A stretch of DNA of 40,785 nucleotides from positions 1 through 40,785 of the forward strand of contig JALSIX010000139.1 of the NCBI GenBank assembly GCA_026989655.1, in the 5' to 3' direction. Made by a program: the position numbers and the translations under genes. This document shows, piece by piece, positions 9,141 through 33,446 of this stretch (positions within the stretch are counted from its first letter, which is position 1; each line of letters opens with the position of its first letter). Below the pieces are notes generated by a model. The model worked only from the letters and a program-made list of their open reading frames with translations. It did no database searches and had not been told where the DNA came from. The stretch comes from Caldilineaceae bacterium. Lineage in GTDB: Bacteria > Chloroflexota > Anaerolineae > Caldilineales > Caldilineaceae.

Positions 9141-10925
9141 ATGGCTCGTCGCTCCCGCCCCTCTGGCCGCCCCCCCGGGGGCAGAGGACGCCCCCGCCGG
9201 ACCCTCTGGCTGGGACTGGGCCTCTTCACGGTCCTTCTGCTGCTCCTGTGCAGCATCAGCGGCGCATGGTGGCTCGCCCGATGGCTGACGGGAGGAGCCG
9301 AGGAGGCCGGCCCGGCCAACCCGGCCCCCACCTGGCCCCCGGACAGCCCGGTCCTCTCCGTGGCCGTCTCTCCGGTCATGTTGCCCACCCTCCAGGAGCT
9401 GGCCGCGGCGTTCAACGCCCAGGAGCTCACCGCCCCCGACGGCCAGACCCTGCAGATCCAGGTGCGTCCCCTGGTCCCCGAGACCATGGTGACCCGGGCC
9501 CTGGAGGCCCCTTCCTTCCAGGCCCTGGTGCCCGACAGCAGCATCTGGCTGGACCTCCTGGACCGCCAGTGGGCCCAGCGCCACGCCCCCCCGGGGAACA
9601 CCAACGCCCTTGCGGCCCTGATCCCGCCCCGCCGGGTGGCGGCCCACGTCCGCTTCGCGGTCAGCCCCCTGGTCATCGCCGCCTGGGAGGACGTGGCCCA
9701 GGAGCTGGGCTGGCCCCAGCAGCCGGTGAGCTGGAGCACCGTCCAACGCAAGGCCGTGGAGGACCCGACCTTCCGCTGGAGCCACCCCAGCACCCAACAC
9801 GCGGCCGGCCTCCTGGCCACCCTGGCCGAGTTCTACGCGGGCGCCGGCCTGACCCGAGGCCTGGACGAGACCCTGGCCACCCAGCCCCACGTGCTGGACT
9901 ACGTCCGCACCATCGAGGCCACGGTCCAGTTCTACGGCGAGAGCGAGGATGTCCTGGTCCAACGGCTGGCCGAGGAAGGCACCCAGATCGTGGATGCCTT
10001 CGTGGCCCAGGAACAGACGGTCATCGCGTGGAACCGACGGCAGCCCCAGCGGCGGCTGGTGGCCCTCTATCCTGCAGAGGGCACCCTGTGGGTGGACCAT
10101 CCCCTGGCCCTGCTGGAGCTGGGCGCGGAGGACGAATCCCCCGTCACCGACAACCAACGCCGCGCCTTCCAGGCCTTCAGCCAGTTCCTCACCCAGCCCG
10201 ACACCCAACGGCGCCTCCTGGAGCGGGGCTATCGGCCCACCCACCCAGATCTGGCCCTGGATGAGCCCGGCAGCCCCTTCGTGGACACGGACACAGTGGA
10301 CCCCCGCCAGCCGGCCACCGCCCTCCAGATCCCGCCGGCCTCGGTGGTGGAGGTGGTGCGCAACGTCTGGTGGTACACCAAGCGCCCTACCAACGTCTTC
10401 CTGGTGGTGGACACCAGCGATTCCATGTCCGGCGACAAGCTGGACGCCACCCGACAGGCCCTCCGGGCCTTCGTGGACCAGATCCGCGGCCCCCGGGACC
10501 GGGTCGGCCTGGTGGACTTCGGCTCGGGGGTGAAGCGTGTGGTGCCCCTCCAGCCCATGGACGAAAGGGGCCGAGCGAACCTCTTCCCGGTCATCGATTC
10601 CCTGGAGGCCGACGGCTACACCGCCCTGGTGGACGGGGTGATGGCCGCGTACCAGGCCCTACAGGACGCGAACGACCCAGAGGCCATCAACGCCATCGTG
10701 GTCATGACCGACGGCCAGGAGAACAACAGCCGCTACGACATGGGAGACCTGGCCCGGGCCATGCAGGCGGGCCGGATCCCCGTGCTGATCTTCACCATCG
10801 GCTTCGGCGACGACGCGGACGAGGTGCTGCTGCGGCAGATGGCGGAGCTGGGCCGGGGCCAGTTCCGCTGGGCCAGCGAGGCCGATCTCCAACAGCTCTA
10901 CCGGATTATCTCCACCTACTTCTGA
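9141..10925 (+). CDS. Substrate-binding-like domain fused to a VWA domain, membrane-anchored
   Basis: A 594-residue protein. A basic cytoplasmic tail (RRSRPSGRPPGGRGRPRR) precedes one membrane helix (about residues 20-45). An extracytoplasmic solute-binding-like region of about 350 residues follows, with the same C-lobe pattern (RRAFQAFSQFLTQPDTQRRLLERGYRP) as the preceding protein. The C-terminus is a von Willebrand A domain with a complete metal site: DTSDS at 424-428 and the Asp of TDGQ at 524. VWA domains bind protein partners through a divalent metal. ATG 9141 is preferred over an in-frame GTG at 9132 because GAGGTGAG lies 5 nt upstream. The gene starts 10 bp after the previous stop. Such binding-protein/VWA fusions are known in bacteria, but the function of the family is not established. 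Confidence 0.82.
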   Translation: MARRSRPSGRPPGGRGRPRRTLWLGLGLFTVLLLLLCSISGAWWLARWLTGGAEEAGPANPAPTWPPDSPVLSVAVSPVMLPTLQELAAAFNAQELTAPDGQTLQIQVRPLVPETMVTRALEAPSFQALVPDSSIWLDLLDRQWAQRHAPPGNTNALAALIPPRRVAAHVRFAVSPLVIAAWEDVAQELGWPQQPVSWSTVQRKAVEDPTFRWSHPSTQHAAGLLATLAEFYAGAGLTRGLDETLATQPHVLDYVRTIEATVQFYGESEDVLVQRLAEEGTQIVDAFVAQEQTVIAWNRRQPQRRLVALYPAEGTLWVDHPLALLELGAEDESPVTDNQRRAFQAFSQFLTQPDTQRRLLERGYRPTHPDLALDEPGSPFVDTDTVDPRQPATALQIPPASVVEVVRNVWWYTKRPTNVFLVVDTSDSMSGDKLDATRQALRAFVDQIRGPRDRVGLVDFGSGVKRVVPLQPMDERGRANLFPVIDSLEADGYTALVDGVMAAYQALQDANDPEAINAIVVMTDGQENNSRYDMGDLARAMQAGRIPVLIFTIGFGDDADEVLLRQMAELGRGQFRWASEADLQQLYRIISTYF

Positions 10926-10929
10926 CACC

Positions 10930-11808
10930 GTGCCCATGGCCACCCGGACGGAACTCCAGCGACGGGCCCAGAGCCTCCTCATCCAGTACGCGCTCTTCCG
11001 CTGGGAGAACGCGATCCTCCTGGGGCTGACCCTGGTGCTCACCGTCCTCTATCCCCGGCCCTTCCCCTGGTGGCCCGGCTGGGGATGGCCGGCCCTGGGC
11101 CTCCTGGGCGTGGCCTTGGTGATCTACACCAGCCTCACCGACACCCAGGCCAATGGCCGGATCCTGGTGGCACTGCTGCAGGAGGAGTACACCCCCCGCA
11201 CCCTCCGCCACCCTGGCCTCCGCGCCGAGGTGGAGAGGGCCCTGGACTACCAACGCCGCATCGAGGAGCAGATCCGCGCCCAACGCCCGGGCATCCTGCG
11301 AGACCGGCTGGAGGACACCGCCGGCCAGATCTGGGAGTGGGTCCGCTCCATCCACGAGCTGGCCCGACGCCTGGACGGGTACCTGGCGGAACGCCCCAGC
11401 CCTGAACAGCGCCAACATCTGCGCCAGGAGCTCCGGGACCTGGAGGCCCAGCTCCGGCTGGAGACCAACCCGGAGACCCGGAGGCAGATCCAGGAGGTCC
11501 TGGCCGCCAAGCAGACCTACCTGGAGACCCTGGAGGCCCTGGAGGAACGGATGGAGCAGGCACGTCTCCAGATGGACCAGAGCCTCACCGCGCTGGCCAC
11601 GGTCTACAACCAACTCCGTCTCATCGACGCCCAGGACGTGGCCAGCGGCCGGGCCGAACGCCTCCGGGCCGACATCCAGGAGCAGATCCAGCGCCTGGAT
11701 GACCTGGTGGCCAGCCTGAACCAGGTGTACGGGACCCGGTTCGACCGACCCATGCCTGCCGCGGACCCTGGAGCCGTGGCCGGCGCCCCAGGGGACACGA
11801 ACCCCTGA
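10930..11808 (+). CDS. Two-helix membrane protein with long coiled-coil tail
   Basis: A 292-residue protein of unknown function. Two membrane helices near the N-terminus (about residues 27-44 and 52-70) form a hairpin, so the long remainder should lie in the cytoplasm. That remainder is helical and charged, with coiled-coil character over about 85-265 (for example QEVLAAKQTYLETLEALEERMEQ). The tail ends in a Pro/Ala-rich segment. Translation may start at GTG 10930 or at ATG 10936; neither has a good ribosome binding site, and coupling to the preceding gene (stop at 10925) is likely. A cytoplasmic coiled coil tethered to the membrane, encoded with PspA, could be a docking partner for PspA; that is inference. 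Confidence 0.7.
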   Translation: MPMATRTELQRRAQSLLIQYALFRWENAILLGLTLVLTVLYPRPFPWWPGWGWPALGLLGVALVIYTSLTDTQANGRILVALLQEEYTPRTLRHPGLRAEVERALDYQRRIEEQIRAQRPGILRDRLEDTAGQIWEWVRSIHELARRLDGYLAERPSPEQRQHLRQELRDLEAQLRLETNPETRRQIQEVLAAKQTYLETLEALEERMEQARLQMDQSLTALATVYNQLRLIDAQDVASGRAERLRADIQEQIQRLDDLVASLNQVYGTRFDRPMPAADPGAVAGAPGDTNP

Positions 11809-16624: not shown

Positions 16625-18162
16625 GCACTGCCCCCCCCAGCCCGGAGGCGGTGGAGAACCGGGCCAAGGCCGAGGCCCTCCGGGCCCGCCTGGCCCAGCG
16701 AGGCATCCGCCACTTCATCCGCGGCCAAGAGGTGGACTCCGTCTCCGGCCAGACCTTCGAGACCTGTTCGCCGGTGGACAACCGGCCCATCTGTCCAGTG
16801 GCCGCAGGGGACGCCCAGGACATCCACCGGGCGGCCCAGGCGGCCCGGGAGGCCTTCCCGGCCTGGCGGGACCTGCCGGCCCGGGAGCGGAAGCGGCTGC
16901 TCCACCGGGTGGCCGACCTCATCCAGGAACGGGCCGAGGAGATCGCGCTCCTGGAGAGCCTGGACACCGGCCAGCCCATCCGCTTCATGAGCAAGGCCGC
17001 CATCCGGGGCGCGGCCAACTTCCGCTTCTTCGCGGACCGCTGCGAGAGCGCCCGGGACGGCCTCAGCCTGCCCACCGAGCAGTTCCTGAACTACACCGTC
17101 CGCCAGCCCATCGGCCCGGTGGGGGCCATCACCCCCTGGAACACGCCCTTCATGCTCAGCACGTGGAAGATCGCGCCGGCCCTGGCCGCGGGCTGCACCG
17201 TGGTCCACAAGCCCGCGGAGTGGAGCCCGGTCACCGCGGCCCTGCTGGCCGAGATCCTCCACCAGGCCGGGATCCCCGCCGGCGTGGTCAACACCGTCCA
17301 CGGCTTCGGGGAGACCGCGGGCCGGGCCCTGACCGAGCACCCGGAGATCCGGGCCATCGCCTTCGTGGGCGAATCCGCCACCGGCAGTGCCATCCTCCGC
17401 CAGGGCGCCGAGACCCTGAAGCGGGTCCACTTCGAGCTGGGGGGCAAGAACCCCGCGGTGATCTTCGAGGACGCGGACCTGGACCGGGCCGTGGACGGCA
17501 CGGTCTTCATGATCTTCAGCCTGAACGGCGAACGCTGCACCTCCAACAGCCGGGCCCTGGTCCACCGCAGCCTCTACCCGGCCTTCGTGGAACGGGTCGC
17601 GGAACGGGCCCGAAACATCCGGGTGGGCGATCCCCTGGACCCGACCACCGAGGTGGGGCCCCTGATCCACCCGGACCACGTGGCAAAGGTCCTCTCCTAC
17701 ATCCAGATCGGCCAGCAGGAGGGGGCCACCCTGGTGGTGGGTGGCCAACGGCTTCAAGAGGGGGCCCTGGCCCAGGGGAACTACGTGGCCCCCGCGGTCT
17801 TCGCGGACGCGGCCAACCACATGCGCATCGCCCAGGAGGAGATCTTCGGCCCAGTCCTCACCGTCATTCCCTTCGACGACGAGGAGGAGGCCCTGGCCCT
17901 GGCCAACGGGGTGAAGTACGGCCTGGCCGCCTATGTGTGGACCCAGGACGTGGCCCGAGCCCATCGGTTCTGCCAACGGCTTGAGGTGGGCATGGTGTGG
18001 GTCAACTCCCACAACGTACGCCATCTGCCCACCCCCTTCGGCGGCATGAAGGCCAGCGGTATCGGCCGGGACGGCGGCGACTACAGCTTCGACTTCTACA
18101 TGGAGACCCAGAACATCGCCATCGCACTGGGCCCCCATCCCATCCCGAGACTCGGCACCTGA
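16621..18162 (+). CDS. hpaE: 5-carboxymethyl-2-hydroxymuconate semialdehyde dehydrogenase
   Basis: A 513-residue NAD(P)-dependent aldehyde dehydrogenase. In this pathway it oxidises the ring-cleavage product 5-carboxymethyl-2-hydroxymuconate semialdehyde. The catalytic set is complete: Asn174 in TPWNTPF, Lys197 in VVHKPAEWSP, Glu272 in FELGGKNP and nucleophile Cys306 in NGERCTSNSR, with the FVGESATG cofactor loop near 248-255. The frame is open far upstream, but ATG 16621 overlaps the hpaG stop (ATGA) and has an AGAGGAGG site. The protein has about 25 residues more at the N-terminus than E. coli HpaE (488 residues). General aldehyde dehydrogenase activity on other substrates remains possible. 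Confidence 0.9.
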   Translation: MSTAPPSPEAVENRAKAEALRARLAQRGIRHFIRGQEVDSVSGQTFETCSPVDNRPICPVAAGDAQDIHRAAQAAREAFPAWRDLPARERKRLLHRVADLIQERAEEIALLESLDTGQPIRFMSKAAIRGAANFRFFADRCESARDGLSLPTEQFLNYTVRQPIGPVGAITPWNTPFMLSTWKIAPALAAGCTVVHKPAEWSPVTAALLAEILHQAGIPAGVVNTVHGFGETAGRALTEHPEIRAIAFVGESATGSAILRQGAETLKRVHFELGGKNPAVIFEDADLDRAVDGTVFMIFSLNGERCTSNSRALVHRSLYPAFVERVAERARNIRVGDPLDPTTEVGPLIHPDHVAKVLSYIQIGQQEGATLVVGGQRLQEGALAQGNYVAPAVFADAANHMRIAQEEIFGPVLTVIPFDDEEEALALANGVKYGLAAYVWTQDVARAHRFCQRLEVGMVWVNSHNVRHLPTPFGGMKASGIGRDGGDYSFDFYMETQNIAIALGPHPIPRLGT

Positions 18163-18183
18163 CACCAGAGGAGGAGGTCGGCC

Positions 18184-19179
18184 ATGCCCATCCGTCATCC
18201 TGCGCCCCGGACCCCCTTCCACATCGTCCGCATGAGCCACATCGAGCTGGGTGTCACCGACCTGGAGGCGTCCCGGCGCTTCTACGTGGACATCCTGGGC
18301 CTGGTGGAGACCGAACAGGTGGGGAACACCCTCTATCTGCGGGGGCTGGAGGAGCGCAACCACCACTCCTTCGTGCTGACCCAGATGGAACGGCCCCTGG
18401 TGCGGCGCATGGGCTACAAGGTGAGCTGCGAGGAGGACCTGGACCTCCTGGCCGAACGGTTCCAACAGCTGGGCCTGCCCGTGGCCTGGGCCGAACCCCA
18501 CGGCCAGGGACGCACCCTCCAGGTCCGAGATCCCCTGGGGATGCCCCTGGAGTTCTGCTTCCACATGGAACAGGTCCCCCGGATGTTGCAGCGGTACGCC
18601 CACTACCGGGGCTGCCGCCCCATGCGCATCGACCACTTCAACTGCTTCACCCCGGACGTCCAGGCCTCCCACGACTTCTACGCGCTGGAGCTGGGCTTCC
18701 GCACCACGGAGTACACGGAGACGGACGATGGGCGGGAACCGCCGGAGCTCTGGGCCGTGTGGATGCACCGGAAGGGCAACGTCCACGACCTGGCCTTCAC
18801 CAATGGCCAGGGCCCCCGGCTCCACCACGTGGCCGTGTGGGCCTCCTCGGTGAACGACATCCTGCACCTGTGCGACGTGATGTCCACCTCCGGCTACCTG
18901 GACCACATGGAGCGGGGGCCGGGCCGCCACGGCATCTCCAACGCCTTCTTCCTCTACACCCGAGACCCGGACGGACACCGGGTGGAGATCTACACCGGCG
19001 ACTACCTGACCGTGGACCCGGACTTCGAGCCCATCCGCTGGGGGCTGCGGGATCCCCAACGACAGACCCTGTGGGGACATCCCGCGCCCCGAAGCTGGTT
19101 CGAGGAGGGCAGCCTGTTCGAGGGAGTGGAGACCCTCCAGCCGCCTCAGGTCCAGGCCGAGCCCATCGTGGCCCCGTAG
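18184..19179 (+). CDS. hpaD: Homoprotocatechuate (3,4-dihydroxyphenylacetate) 2,3-dioxygenase, VOC type
   Basis: A 331-residue extradiol dioxygenase made of two vicinal-oxygen-chelate domains (about 14-130 and 147-290). It opens the ring of 3,4-dihydroxyphenylacetate. The 2-His-1-carboxylate metal site lies in the second domain: His151 in MRIDHFNCFTPDV, His214 or His215 in PRLHHVAVW, and Glu268 in GHRVEIYTGDY. This spacing agrees with the Brevibacterium/Arthrobacter type enzymes (His155, His214, Glu267), not with the unrelated E. coli HpaD fold. The metal, Fe or Mn, cannot be read from sequence. An AGGAGGAGG ribosome binding site precedes the ATG, 21 bp after hpaE. It is the last gene of the operon; a perfect hairpin follows. 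Confidence 0.92.
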   Translation: MPIRHPAPRTPFHIVRMSHIELGVTDLEASRRFYVDILGLVETEQVGNTLYLRGLEERNHHSFVLTQMERPLVRRMGYKVSCEEDLDLLAERFQQLGLPVAWAEPHGQGRTLQVRDPLGMPLEFCFHMEQVPRMLQRYAHYRGCRPMRIDHFNCFTPDVQASHDFYALELGFRTTEYTETDDGREPPELWAVWMHRKGNVHDLAFTNGQGPRLHHVAVWASSVNDILHLCDVMSTSGYLDHMERGPGRHGISNAFFLYTRDPDGHRVEIYTGDYLTVDPDFEPIRWGLRDPQRQTLWGHPAPRSWFEEGSLFEGVETLQPPQVQAEPIVAP

Positions 19180-29829: not shown

Positions 29830-30429
29830 ATGTCCACACCACCCGATCCCGGGCTCCAGGACGAGCCCATGGCCTGGCTTCCCATTCCGACCGAGGACCG
29901 ACTGGATCCGGACATCCAGAAACTCTTCGCCAAGGCCCGGGAGAAGCTCGGCTTCGTGCCCCATGTCTTCCGGGTCTACACCCTCCGCCCGAGCCACTTT
30001 CGCCCCTGGTTCGACCATTTCCGGGAGCTGATGTACGGAGACTCGGAGCTGACCCGGGCCGAGCGCGAGATGATCGGCCTGGCCGTCTCCGCGGAGAACG
30101 GCTGCCTCTACTGCCTGGTGAGCCACGGCGCGGAGCTGCGGGTGGCCCTGGGCGACGCGATCCTGGCGGACCGGATCACCCTGGACTACCGTCGGGCCGG
30201 GCTGGATGCACGCACGGTGGCCATGCTGGACTACGCGGTGAAGCTCACCCGGGCTCCCAAGGAGTGCAGCCAGGCGGACATCCAGCAGCTCCGGGCCCTG
30301 GGCTTCTCGGACCAGGCCATCTTCGACATCGCGGAGATCGCGGCCATGTTCAACTTCACCAACCGGCTGGCCTCGGCCACGGGCATGCTCCCCAATCCCG
30401 AGTACCACGGAATGGGGCGCCCCGGGTGA
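29830..30429 (+). CDS. AhpD-like / carboxymuconolactone decarboxylase family peroxidase-related protein
   Basis: A 199-residue all-helical protein of the CMD/AhpD fold, of the peroxidase-related subgroup. The redox motif ENGCLYCLVSH contains Cys92 and Cys95, with His99 behind them and Glu89 before, as in AhpD-type proton relays. The C-terminal half GFSDQAIFDIAEIAAMFNFTNRLASATG is also typical. It probably reduces peroxides with a thiol donor. AGAGGAGG precedes the ATG. The gene lies 103 bp behind smc; a GC-rich palindrome AAGGCCGCGGCCTT (29726-29739) is in the gap. It is convergent with the DsbA-like gene, another thiol-redox protein, across a hairpin. Confidence 0.88.
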   Translation: MSTPPDPGLQDEPMAWLPIPTEDRLDPDIQKLFAKAREKLGFVPHVFRVYTLRPSHFRPWFDHFRELMYGDSELTRAEREMIGLAVSAENGCLYCLVSHGAELRVALGDAILADRITLDYRRAGLDARTVAMLDYAVKLTRAPKECSQADIQQLRALGFSDQAIFDIAEIAAMFNFTNRLASATGMLPNPEYHGMGRPG

Positions 30430-30540: not shown

Positions 30541-31245
30541 TCAGGGCCGCCGGCCCAGCTCGGCCTCGATGACGGGCTGGAACACGTCGAAGGGGTAGGC
30601 GCCCTCGAACTTCTGGCCGTTGATGAAGATGGTGGGCGTGGAACGGACGCCTCGGGCCTGTCCCTCCTGGCGTTCGGCCTCCACCACGTCCGCGTACTTG
30701 CCGCTCCGATAGCAGCTTCGGAAGGACTCCATGTCCAGGCCGATGGCCTGGGCAAAGGCCATCAGGTTCTCGTCGCTGAAGGCCCCTCGGTTCTCCCCCT
30801 GCTGGTTGGCGAAGAGCATGTCGTGGTATTCCCAGAACTTGCCCTGTTCCTTGGCACACTCCGAGGCCAGGGCCGCGCGGACAGACTCTTGGCCGATGAA
30901 GGCGAAGTGTCGGTACTCGAAACGGACCTGGCCGGTCTCCCCATAGGTCTCCAGGATCTGACGCCCCGCGTCAGTCGCGAATCGCTTGCAGAACGGTCAC
31001 TGGAAGTCGGAGTATTCCTGGATCACCACCGGAGCATCCGGAGGCCCCCAGGCCTTTCCATCCGCATTGGGAGGCGGTTTCAGGTCCTCGGGAACGACCA
31101 CCTGGACAGGCTCCGGACGGTTCAGCCAGACGATCCCCGCGACCAGGAGCACCGCGAGGACCGCGATGCCTCCCAGAACCCAGAGGACCCCCTGCTGGGG
31201 AGCACGGGATGCGGCCCTGCGACGATTCCGACGACGTCGTGCCAT
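30541..31245 (-). CDS. DsbA-like thiol-disulfide oxidoreductase with in-frame TGA, candidate selenoprotein
   Basis: Read through one in-frame TGA at 30997-30999, the gene encodes 234 residues. A basic tail (MARRRRNRRR), a membrane helix (about 20-41) and a thioredoxin fold on the outer face follow. The fold opens PPDAPVVIQEYSDFQ, where homologues continue with CPFC; here the first Cys position (83) is TGA, followed by Pro84-Phe85-Cys86. The rest is intact: CKRFATDAGRQILETYG, the helical insert, and the cis-Pro loop GVRSTPTIFINGQKFEGAYP (Pro204). No other stop or frameshift occurs. A hairpin placed like a SECIS follows. The best reading is selenocysteine in a U-P-F-C site. The alternatives are a single-base nonsense change from TGC or a sequence error. 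GAGGTGA precedes the ATG at 31245. The gene follows nadD by 69 bp and is probably in the obgE-nadD transcript. Confidence 0.75.
30958..30974 (-). promoter_or_regulatory. Candidate bacterial SECIS hairpin
   Basis: On the minus strand CTGACGC (30974-30968), a GGG loop and GCGTCAG (30964-30958) make a perfect 7-bp stem. It begins 22 nt after the in-frame TGA, and the loop lies 29 nt after it, with G in the first loop positions. Known bacterial SECIS elements lie within the coding region shortly behind the UGA with a G at the loop start. The assignment is inferred. Confidence 0.55.
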
Positions 31246-31314: not shown

Positions 31315-32025
31315 TTACCCCTGGCCGTTCCCCCGGTAGAGGTGGTGCTCGCGGATGTACCGTTCCACCGGGGCCGGAACCTGATAGCGAATGGGTTGGC
31401 CCGTGCGCACCCGCTCCCGCAACACGTGGCTCGCGATCTCCAGCTCCGGCATGTCCAGGATGATCACCTGATCCCGGATGCCGGGCAGATGCCGCTCCAG
31501 CTCCCCCCAGTCCAGCTCCACATCCGGCCGGCTGAGGGCCACCAGACGGCAGTTGCGCACCAGCCACTCCGCCTCGTGCCAGGTGGGCAGGTCCCGCAGG
31601 CTGTCCATGCCCATGAGGAAGTAGAGCTCCACGGATCGGCCCACCCGCTCCCGGACCAGGCGGATCATGTCGGTGGTGTAGTGGGGCGGGGGCCGATCCG
31701 CGTCGATGCGGCTCACCCGGACATAGGGGCTGTCCGCGGTGGCGAGCTGGGCCATGCGCAGCCGGTGTTCCACCGGGGCCAACTGCTGGCCCTGCTTGTG
31801 AGGCGGTTGGCCAGCCGGGACCACGTAGACCCGATCCAGCCCCAGTTGGAACCAGGCCTCCTCGGCCAAGATCAGGTGGCCCAGGTGGATGGGATCGAAG
31901 GTGCCGCCGAAGATACCGATCCGCCGCAGCGCGGGCTCGGTGTGGCCCAGGCTGAGGGTGTCCTCGGCCGTCTCCATGGGAAGGTGAAACGCCCCCCGGC
32001 GGGGGCCCGGAGAACGGGATGCCAT
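31315..32025 (-). CDS. nadD: Nicotinate-nucleotide adenylyltransferase
   Basis: A 236-residue enzyme of NAD synthesis that joins nicotinate mononucleotide and ATP to deamido-NAD. The nucleotidyltransferase motif [12 protein letters not shown] (40-51) is complete, as are [12 protein letters not shown] and [23 protein letters not shown]. The C-terminal ISSTxIR motif is altered to [11 protein letters not shown], which is unusual. The N-terminus is about 35 residues longer than in compact NadD proteins; ATG 32025 has AAGGAG in front, and a shorter start at Met17 is possible. The gene starts 26 bp after obgE, a common neighbour of nadD in many bacteria. It is followed by the DsbA-like gene. Confidence 0.93.
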
Positions 32026-32051: not shown

Positions 32052-33344
32052 TCACTCGCCGAAGGCGTTCTCGTAGCCCCAGACCAGCTCCACCGAGCCG
32101 ATCTGGACCCGATGGCCCTCCTGGATGCCGGCCTCCCGCAGGGCCTCCTCGATGCCCAGGGCCCGCAGGATGCGCTGGAAGCGCATGGCCGCCTCGTAGT
32201 AGTCCCAGTTCGTCATCTGGGCCGCCCGCTCGATGGCGATCCCCTCCACCTGCCACAGATCCTCGCCCAGCCGCTGGACCCGGAAGGCCTTCTCATCCGG
32301 CTCCGGAACGATCTCCACCAGGGATTCCTGGGGCTCCTCCTCGGGCGGCAAGCGCTCCAACATCGCCTGCACCCGGCGGAGCATCTCCGGGATCCCCTCC
32401 CGGGTGGCCGCGCTGATGGCCATCACCGGACGCCCCTGGGCCTGGACAGCAGCCTGGACCTCGGGCCACCGGGCCCGAGCTCCGGGGAGATCCATCTTGT
32501 TGAACACCACCAACTGGGGCTTCTCCGCCAGCTTCGGGTTGAAGAGCTCCAGTTCCTGCTGGATGGCCCGGAGATCCCCCAGCGGATCCGGGCTGGCCCC
32601 GTTGAGAAGGTGGACCAACATCCGACATCGCTCCACATGGCGCAGGAAGTCCAGCCCCAGCCCCACGCCTTCGTGGGCCCCCTCCAACAGGCCCGGGATG
32701 TCCGCGAAGACGATGGCCTGATGGTCCACCTGGGCCACCCCCAGGTGGGGCACCACCGTGGTGAAGGGATAGTCCGCGATCTTGGGCCGGGCCGCGCTGA
32801 TCACGCTGAGCAGGGTGGACTTCCCCGCGTTGGGGATCCCCACGATGCCCACGTCGGCCACCAGCTTCAGCTCCAGCTCCAGCCAGCGTTCCTCCCCAAG
32901 CTCCCCCTTCTCGGCCAATCGGGGGGCCCGGTTCCGGTCCGACTTGAAGGCCGCATTGCCCCGGCCGCCCCGGCCGCCCCGAGCCACCCGTACCTCCTGG
33001 CCCGGCCGGGTCAGGTCGGCCAAGAGCTCCCCGCTCTCCCCATCCCGGACCACCGTGCCCACCGGAACGGAGATGCGCAGGTCCTGGCCGGCCGGGCCGG
33101 TGCGGTTGTTCGGCCCCCCATGGCCACCTCGCTCGGCCCGGAAATGGGCCCGCTTGGTGAAGGGCAACAGGGTGTTGAGGCCCGGATCCGCGACCAGATA
33201 GACATGGCCGCCGCGCCCCCCGCTTCCGCCCGATGGCCCCCCACGGGGGACGTACTTCTCCCGGCGGAAGGCCACGATGCCGTTGCCGCCATCGCCGCCC
33301 TTGACGTGGATCCGCGCCCGATCGAAAAAACGCACCTTGTCCAT
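32052..33344 (-). CDS. obgE: GTPase Obg/CgtA
   Basis: A 430-residue essential GTPase of ribosome (50S) assembly and stress control. The glycine-rich Obg fold comes first ([31 protein letters not shown], then [17 protein letters not shown]). The G domain follows with G1 GIPNAGKST (Lys175), G2/G3 in [11 protein letters not shown] and [17 protein letters not shown], and G4 FNKMDLPGA. The C-terminal OCT domain ([25 protein letters not shown]) is present, as in many Gram-positive-type and Chloroflexota proteins. ATG 33344 gives the canonical [20 protein letters not shown] start, although the ribosome binding site is weak (GTGGAAA). Three tandem 16-bp repeats lie 12-59 bp upstream in the predicted leader. 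The gene heads an obgE-nadD-dsbA transcript. Confidence 0.95.
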
Positions 33345-33355
33345 GCTTTTTCCAC

Positions 33356-33403
33356 ATCGAATCCAGTGGAAATCGAATCCACTGGAAATCGAATCCAGTG
33401 GAA
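33356..33403. repeat. Three tandem 16-bp repeats in the obgE leader
   Basis: Three exact-length copies of ATCGAATCCASTGGAA follow without gap (33356-33371, 33372-33387, 33388-33403). Copies 1 and 3 have G at the eleventh position and copy 2 has C. This makes copy 2 complementary to its neighbours over TCCAGTGG/CCACTGGA, so in RNA copy 2 can pair with copy 1 or with copy 3 (8 bp, 7-nt loop) but not both. They lie between the predicted transcription start and the obgE ATG, and are far more A/T-rich than the surroundings. Confidence 0.9.
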
Positions 33404-33446
33404 CACACGGGAGGAGACCGCCGTGCTCTCTCCTTCCCCGGCCTCC

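Follow-up and report, generated by a model that had tools for sequence, protein, structure and literature searches.

The window, a stretch of 40,785 nt from a Caldilineaceae contig (JALSIX010000139.1), carries on its minus strand a gene for a DsbA-like protein with a TGA codon at its putative active site. The gene runs from an ATG at 31245 to a TGA stop codon at 30543–30541 and comprises 234 codons with the internal TGA counted; a first-pass annotation had given the same coordinates (31245–30541), frame, length, and single internal TGA, and these were borne out. Read along the minus strand, the frame encodes an arginine-rich start, an N-terminal membrane helix (residues 17–41, positions 31197–31123) that has no lipobox cysteine, the stretch EYSDFQ-TGA-PFCKRF, and a Thr-Pro loop (STPTIFING), and then ends at the stop codon. 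The internal TGA (30999–30997, codon 83) is the sole internal stop, no frameshift is present, and the codon occupies the first position of a predicted UxxC active site (U-P-F-C, with U for selenocysteine, Sec). A Shine-Dalgarno-like GAGGTGA (31257–31251), spotted by eye, precedes the ATG by 5 nt, and genes for a NadD-like nucleotidyltransferase (31315–31977) and the Obg GTPase (32052–33434) lie upstream on the same strand, in agreement with the ribosome binding site and operon position described earlier. This nadD/obg neighborhood was not seen around the other loci, for which short flanks were examined. The convergent neighbor (29830–30429, plus strand) encodes a carboxymuconolactone-decarboxylase/AhpD-like protein with a CxxC motif (CLYC).

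The protein matches the Pfam profiles Thioredoxin_4 (PF13462; E 3.5e-36, residues 65–227, 125 bits against a cut-off of 23) and DSBA (PF01323; E 1.4e-19, residues 75–224, 71 bits against a cut-off of 25.6), and both matches extend across codon 83, consistent with the single domain spanning the TGA that had been proposed. In the AlphaFold model (mean pLDDT 91.6), a long helix at the N-terminus precedes a thioredoxin fold into which a helical domain is inserted. This arrangement, with (U/C)xxC at the start of a helix in the predicted model and in its PDB matches, is that of the DsbA-like proteins. The best match among solved structures is BdbD of Bacillus subtilis (3eu3/3eu4; Z 22.5, 2.0 Å over 172 residues), which is 28% identical and has Cys where the window protein has Sec; the Corynebacterium diphtheriae enzymes TsdA/DsbA and further DsbA proteins, related Gram-positive ones among them, also rank with the best matches. 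In an alignment of 30 relatives, with Sec entered as Cys, the invariant positions are 83, the second active-site residue Cys86 (TGC, 30990–30988), Cys130, Cys178, and Thr203-Pro204 (30639–30634), the last forming a loop that is expected from the family to be in the cis state.

The position of the TGA is conserved among relatives. In the first relative set, an internal TGA is found in 26 of 175 distinct domains, always aligned with the first active-site Cys, and the second active-site position is Cys in all 26. A wider sample of 298 genomes from the same Chloroflexota class raised the total to 55 distinct TGA-bearing domains, every one of which carries the TGA at the first Cys of CxxC; the regions were picked partly for holding a TGA, so that the share of Sec forms is not a frequency, but this choice was independent of the place of the TGA within the domain. 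One apparent exception, L071, was set aside, its TGA being an ordinary stop beyond the domain. Dozens of other genomes carry a TGA at the same codon, and the in-frame UGA aligns with the redox Cys of homologues. The frame is kept downstream in relatives, whereas frame-disrupting changes there had been named in the first-pass annotation as grounds for rejection. Placement of the TGA at the first active-site cysteine had been recognized in the first-pass annotation; its further statement that this site is nearly always CPFC did not hold, as relatives show CP[F/Y/V]C and other sequences. A tandem DsbA-like protein (L062, in genome G049, contig C24) has an in-frame TGA in each of two neighboring domains and a further domain with Ser at the active site, making it a candidate two-Sec protein.

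A hairpin follows codon 83 (CUGACGC-GGG-GCGUCAG, 30974–30958), with a stem of 7 bp, a 3-nt loop with G first, an energy of −9.2 kcal/mol, and a spacing of 29 nt from the UGA to its apical loop. It lies within every limit of the published bacterial SECIS model, namely a loop of 3–9 nt, an upper stem of 4–16 bp, G in the first two loop positions, a spacing of 16–37 nt, and a minimum free energy of −7.5 kcal/mol or below (PMC13188914). A result this good is reached at 7.7% of codon positions in the GC-rich window and in 2.8% of synonymous recodings; the hairpin by itself is weak evidence for Sec, and it is the comparison across relatives that counts. Folding of the whole 62-nt stretch gave a structure no more stable than those of shuffled sequences, so the test was made local and comparative. 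In a gap-free alignment of 29 Sec relatives, 95.1% of hairpin cells are paired and two-sided changes occur in 5 of the 7 pairs (34 cells), while pairings slid along the alignment leave 22–47% of cells paired. None of 500 shuffles matched the observed paired share, number of two-sided cells, or covariation score, although these controls are not probabilities, since the structure was read from the same sequences and the rows are related. The 29 rows include L205, which largely lacks the hairpin, and leave out L033, L057, L215, and L218, which have hairpins at other spacings. Six to seven pairs form at the same columns in 28 of 33 Sec rows versus 2 of 26 Cys rows, and hairpins are more stable after Sec codons than after Cys codons (p 5e-12, a value that overstates independence because the rows are related). 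The covarying SECIS hairpin gives further backing to the Sec interpretation.

These comparisons bear on the possibility that a sequencing or assembly error converted a TGC (Cys) codon to TGA in an ordinary DsbA-like gene. Such an error would be in keeping with the Cys form of the nearest neighbor in a tree of 63 domains built with the Sec column blanked (L181, genome G258, support 99/92), but the same-codon TGA recurs in orthologues from many other genomes, and the window gene carries the hairpin that is typical of Sec forms and that most Cys forms lack. Because the TGA recurs at one column in independent assemblies, an error is not credible, and we consider it very improbable. Parsimony places nine Sec/Cys changes on the tree, of which at least six are forced by well-supported branches, a number that makes neither a sequencing error nor a single decayed gene credible.

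We regard as equally improbable that the TGA is a true nonsense mutation in a decaying gene. Without recoding, as the first-pass annotation pointed out, only a stub of 82 residues would be made, and the next in-frame ATG (30819) would yield 92 residues without an active site. Against decay, the frame is free of further stops and of frameshifts, Cys86, Cys130, Cys178, and Thr-Pro are all intact, and the TGA position recurs across relatives. Third-position GC is also high downstream of the TGA (0.87, compared with 0.72 before it), which fits translated DNA.

The host genome (4.09 Mb, 150 contigs, 99% complete) encodes the full set of genes for Sec insertion, the absence of which had been named as grounds for rejecting a selenoprotein. 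All four genes expected of a bacterial selenoprotein producer are present: selC (tRNA-Sec, scoring 73.6 bits, above the Rfam cut-off, with anticodon TCA by ARAGORN), SelB (325 bits, cut-off 242), SelA (582 bits, cut-off 268), and SelD (332 bits, cut-off 125). The selD gene (L081, contig C118, about 17962–18957) has its own in-frame TGA at MVACAGUASK and encodes a Sec-type selenophosphate synthetase; Sec synthesis in this organism thus appears to involve an enzyme that itself contains Sec. Readthrough of UGA exists in bacteria, but decoding of codon 83 as another amino acid, by a near-cognate tRNA or a changed genetic code, is the least probable reading of all, given a tRNA-Sec with a UCA anticodon, a DsbA-like gene that itself terminates in TGA, and an internal TGA confined to sites at which a redox Cys is expected. 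Among relatives, a tRNA-Sec match was obtained for 21 of the 22 Sec-bearing genomes in the first sample and for 18 of 27 further ones, the latter no more often than for Cys-only genomes under stricter filters and with incomplete assemblies; in neither sample does its presence distinguish Sec-bearing relatives from Cys-only ones. The matches missing from the second sample are likely explained by incomplete assemblies and strict filters. G093, G145, G249, G255, and others have a TGA-bearing gene but gave no tRNA-Sec match with the strict filters applied, which probably reflects incomplete assemblies or missed hits.

The Sec machinery, the same-codon TGA in relatives, the preserved frame, and the covarying hairpin together support the selenoprotein proposed in the first-pass annotation. 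We infer that the gene very probably encodes a membrane-anchored, extracytoplasmic thiol-disulfide oxidoreductase of the DsbA/BdbD type with Sec at the nucleophilic position of UPFC. UGA at codon 83 would be read by Sec-tRNA(Sec) delivered by SelB, which would be recruited by the hairpin that occupies nt 23–39 after the UGA. Disulfide exchange with substrate proteins is predicted to run through Sec83 and Cys86 as the redox pair, and a second disulfide, structural in role, is probably formed by the invariant Cys130 and Cys178. A gene caller halting at the UGA would annotate the 82-residue stub or two fragments.

DsbA-like selenoproteins are, as the earlier annotation stated, a known class; UxxC DsbA-like (PF01323) forms have been catalogued since at least 2006 (PMC1794560, PMC5029168, PMC13188914), and the window protein shares their Pfam domain and motif, a likeness drawn at the level of domain and motif. 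Its best NCBIfam match is NF041057 (DsbG-like/Rcas_1661 thioredoxin-like (seleno)lipoprotein; 156.2 bits), a DsbG-like type listed among the UxxC selenoprotein families (PMC13188914), with which it shares the fold and a UxxC with Sec first. However, this score is below the curated cut-off of 190, the protein has a plain membrane helix with no lipobox and no Cys before residue 83, its active site is UPFC rather than U[T/G/S]xC, and the spacing from UGA to loop is 29 nt compared with 17. Because of the low score and the missing lipobox, we did not file it in NF041057. The name Rcas_1661 gave no match in the literature searched. The genome has a second DsbA-like selenoprotein gene (L013:1228–1989, contig C140 about 10440–11200), encoding a lipoprotein with UTAC; it also has a TGA and is a true member of NF041057 (250 bits against the cut-off of 190). 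It adjoins a two-domain Cys DsbA protein, and its clade has its own covarying SECIS, in which 5 of 7 pairs show two-sided changes among nine relatives.

The anchored Chloroflexota clade was not described in the literature searched. We think it fairly probable that it is a DsbA-like selenoprotein clade of this Chloroflexota class that lies outside curated models and is distinct from NF041057. Within this clade, at least six exchanges between Sec and Cys would have taken place, and the protein sequence itself would bear the imprint of the SECIS hairpin. Downstream of the active site, most Sec forms contain the motif F-A-[T/A]-[G/D]-[A/S]-x-R-[Q/R]-[I/L], which Cys forms mostly lack. Since Sec forms in several places on the tree share the place of the hairpin, the simpler reading of the sequences is that an old Sec was kept and repeatedly replaced by Cys, which we offer as a candidate direction of change. 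With Sec and Cys relatives in one class and a hairpin that tracks the Sec codon, the clade constitutes a natural experiment on Sec/Cys replacement in one enzyme, and one that bears on what a protein pays for carrying an RNA element within its coding sequence. No match at E 1e-45 came from the other genomes sampled in the window's own family (f1), and gene loss or transfer may be offered as readings.

The function predicted from the modeled fold is most likely extracytoplasmic thiol-disulfide exchange. The similarity to BdbD, together with the one DsbB-like match in the genome (42 bits), slightly favors oxidation, possibly in partnership with that DsbB-like protein. CcdA/DsbD-like matches are found on three contigs of the genome, and a reducing or isomerizing role through CcdA-like proteins is possible. 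VKOR was considered as a redox partner and had no match in this genome. At another locus (L178, contig C67, 10564–13134), a two-domain Cys DsbA gene is followed by a gene for a TlpA-like thioredoxin and one for a CcdA-like membrane protein, a set that may constitute a reducing pathway.
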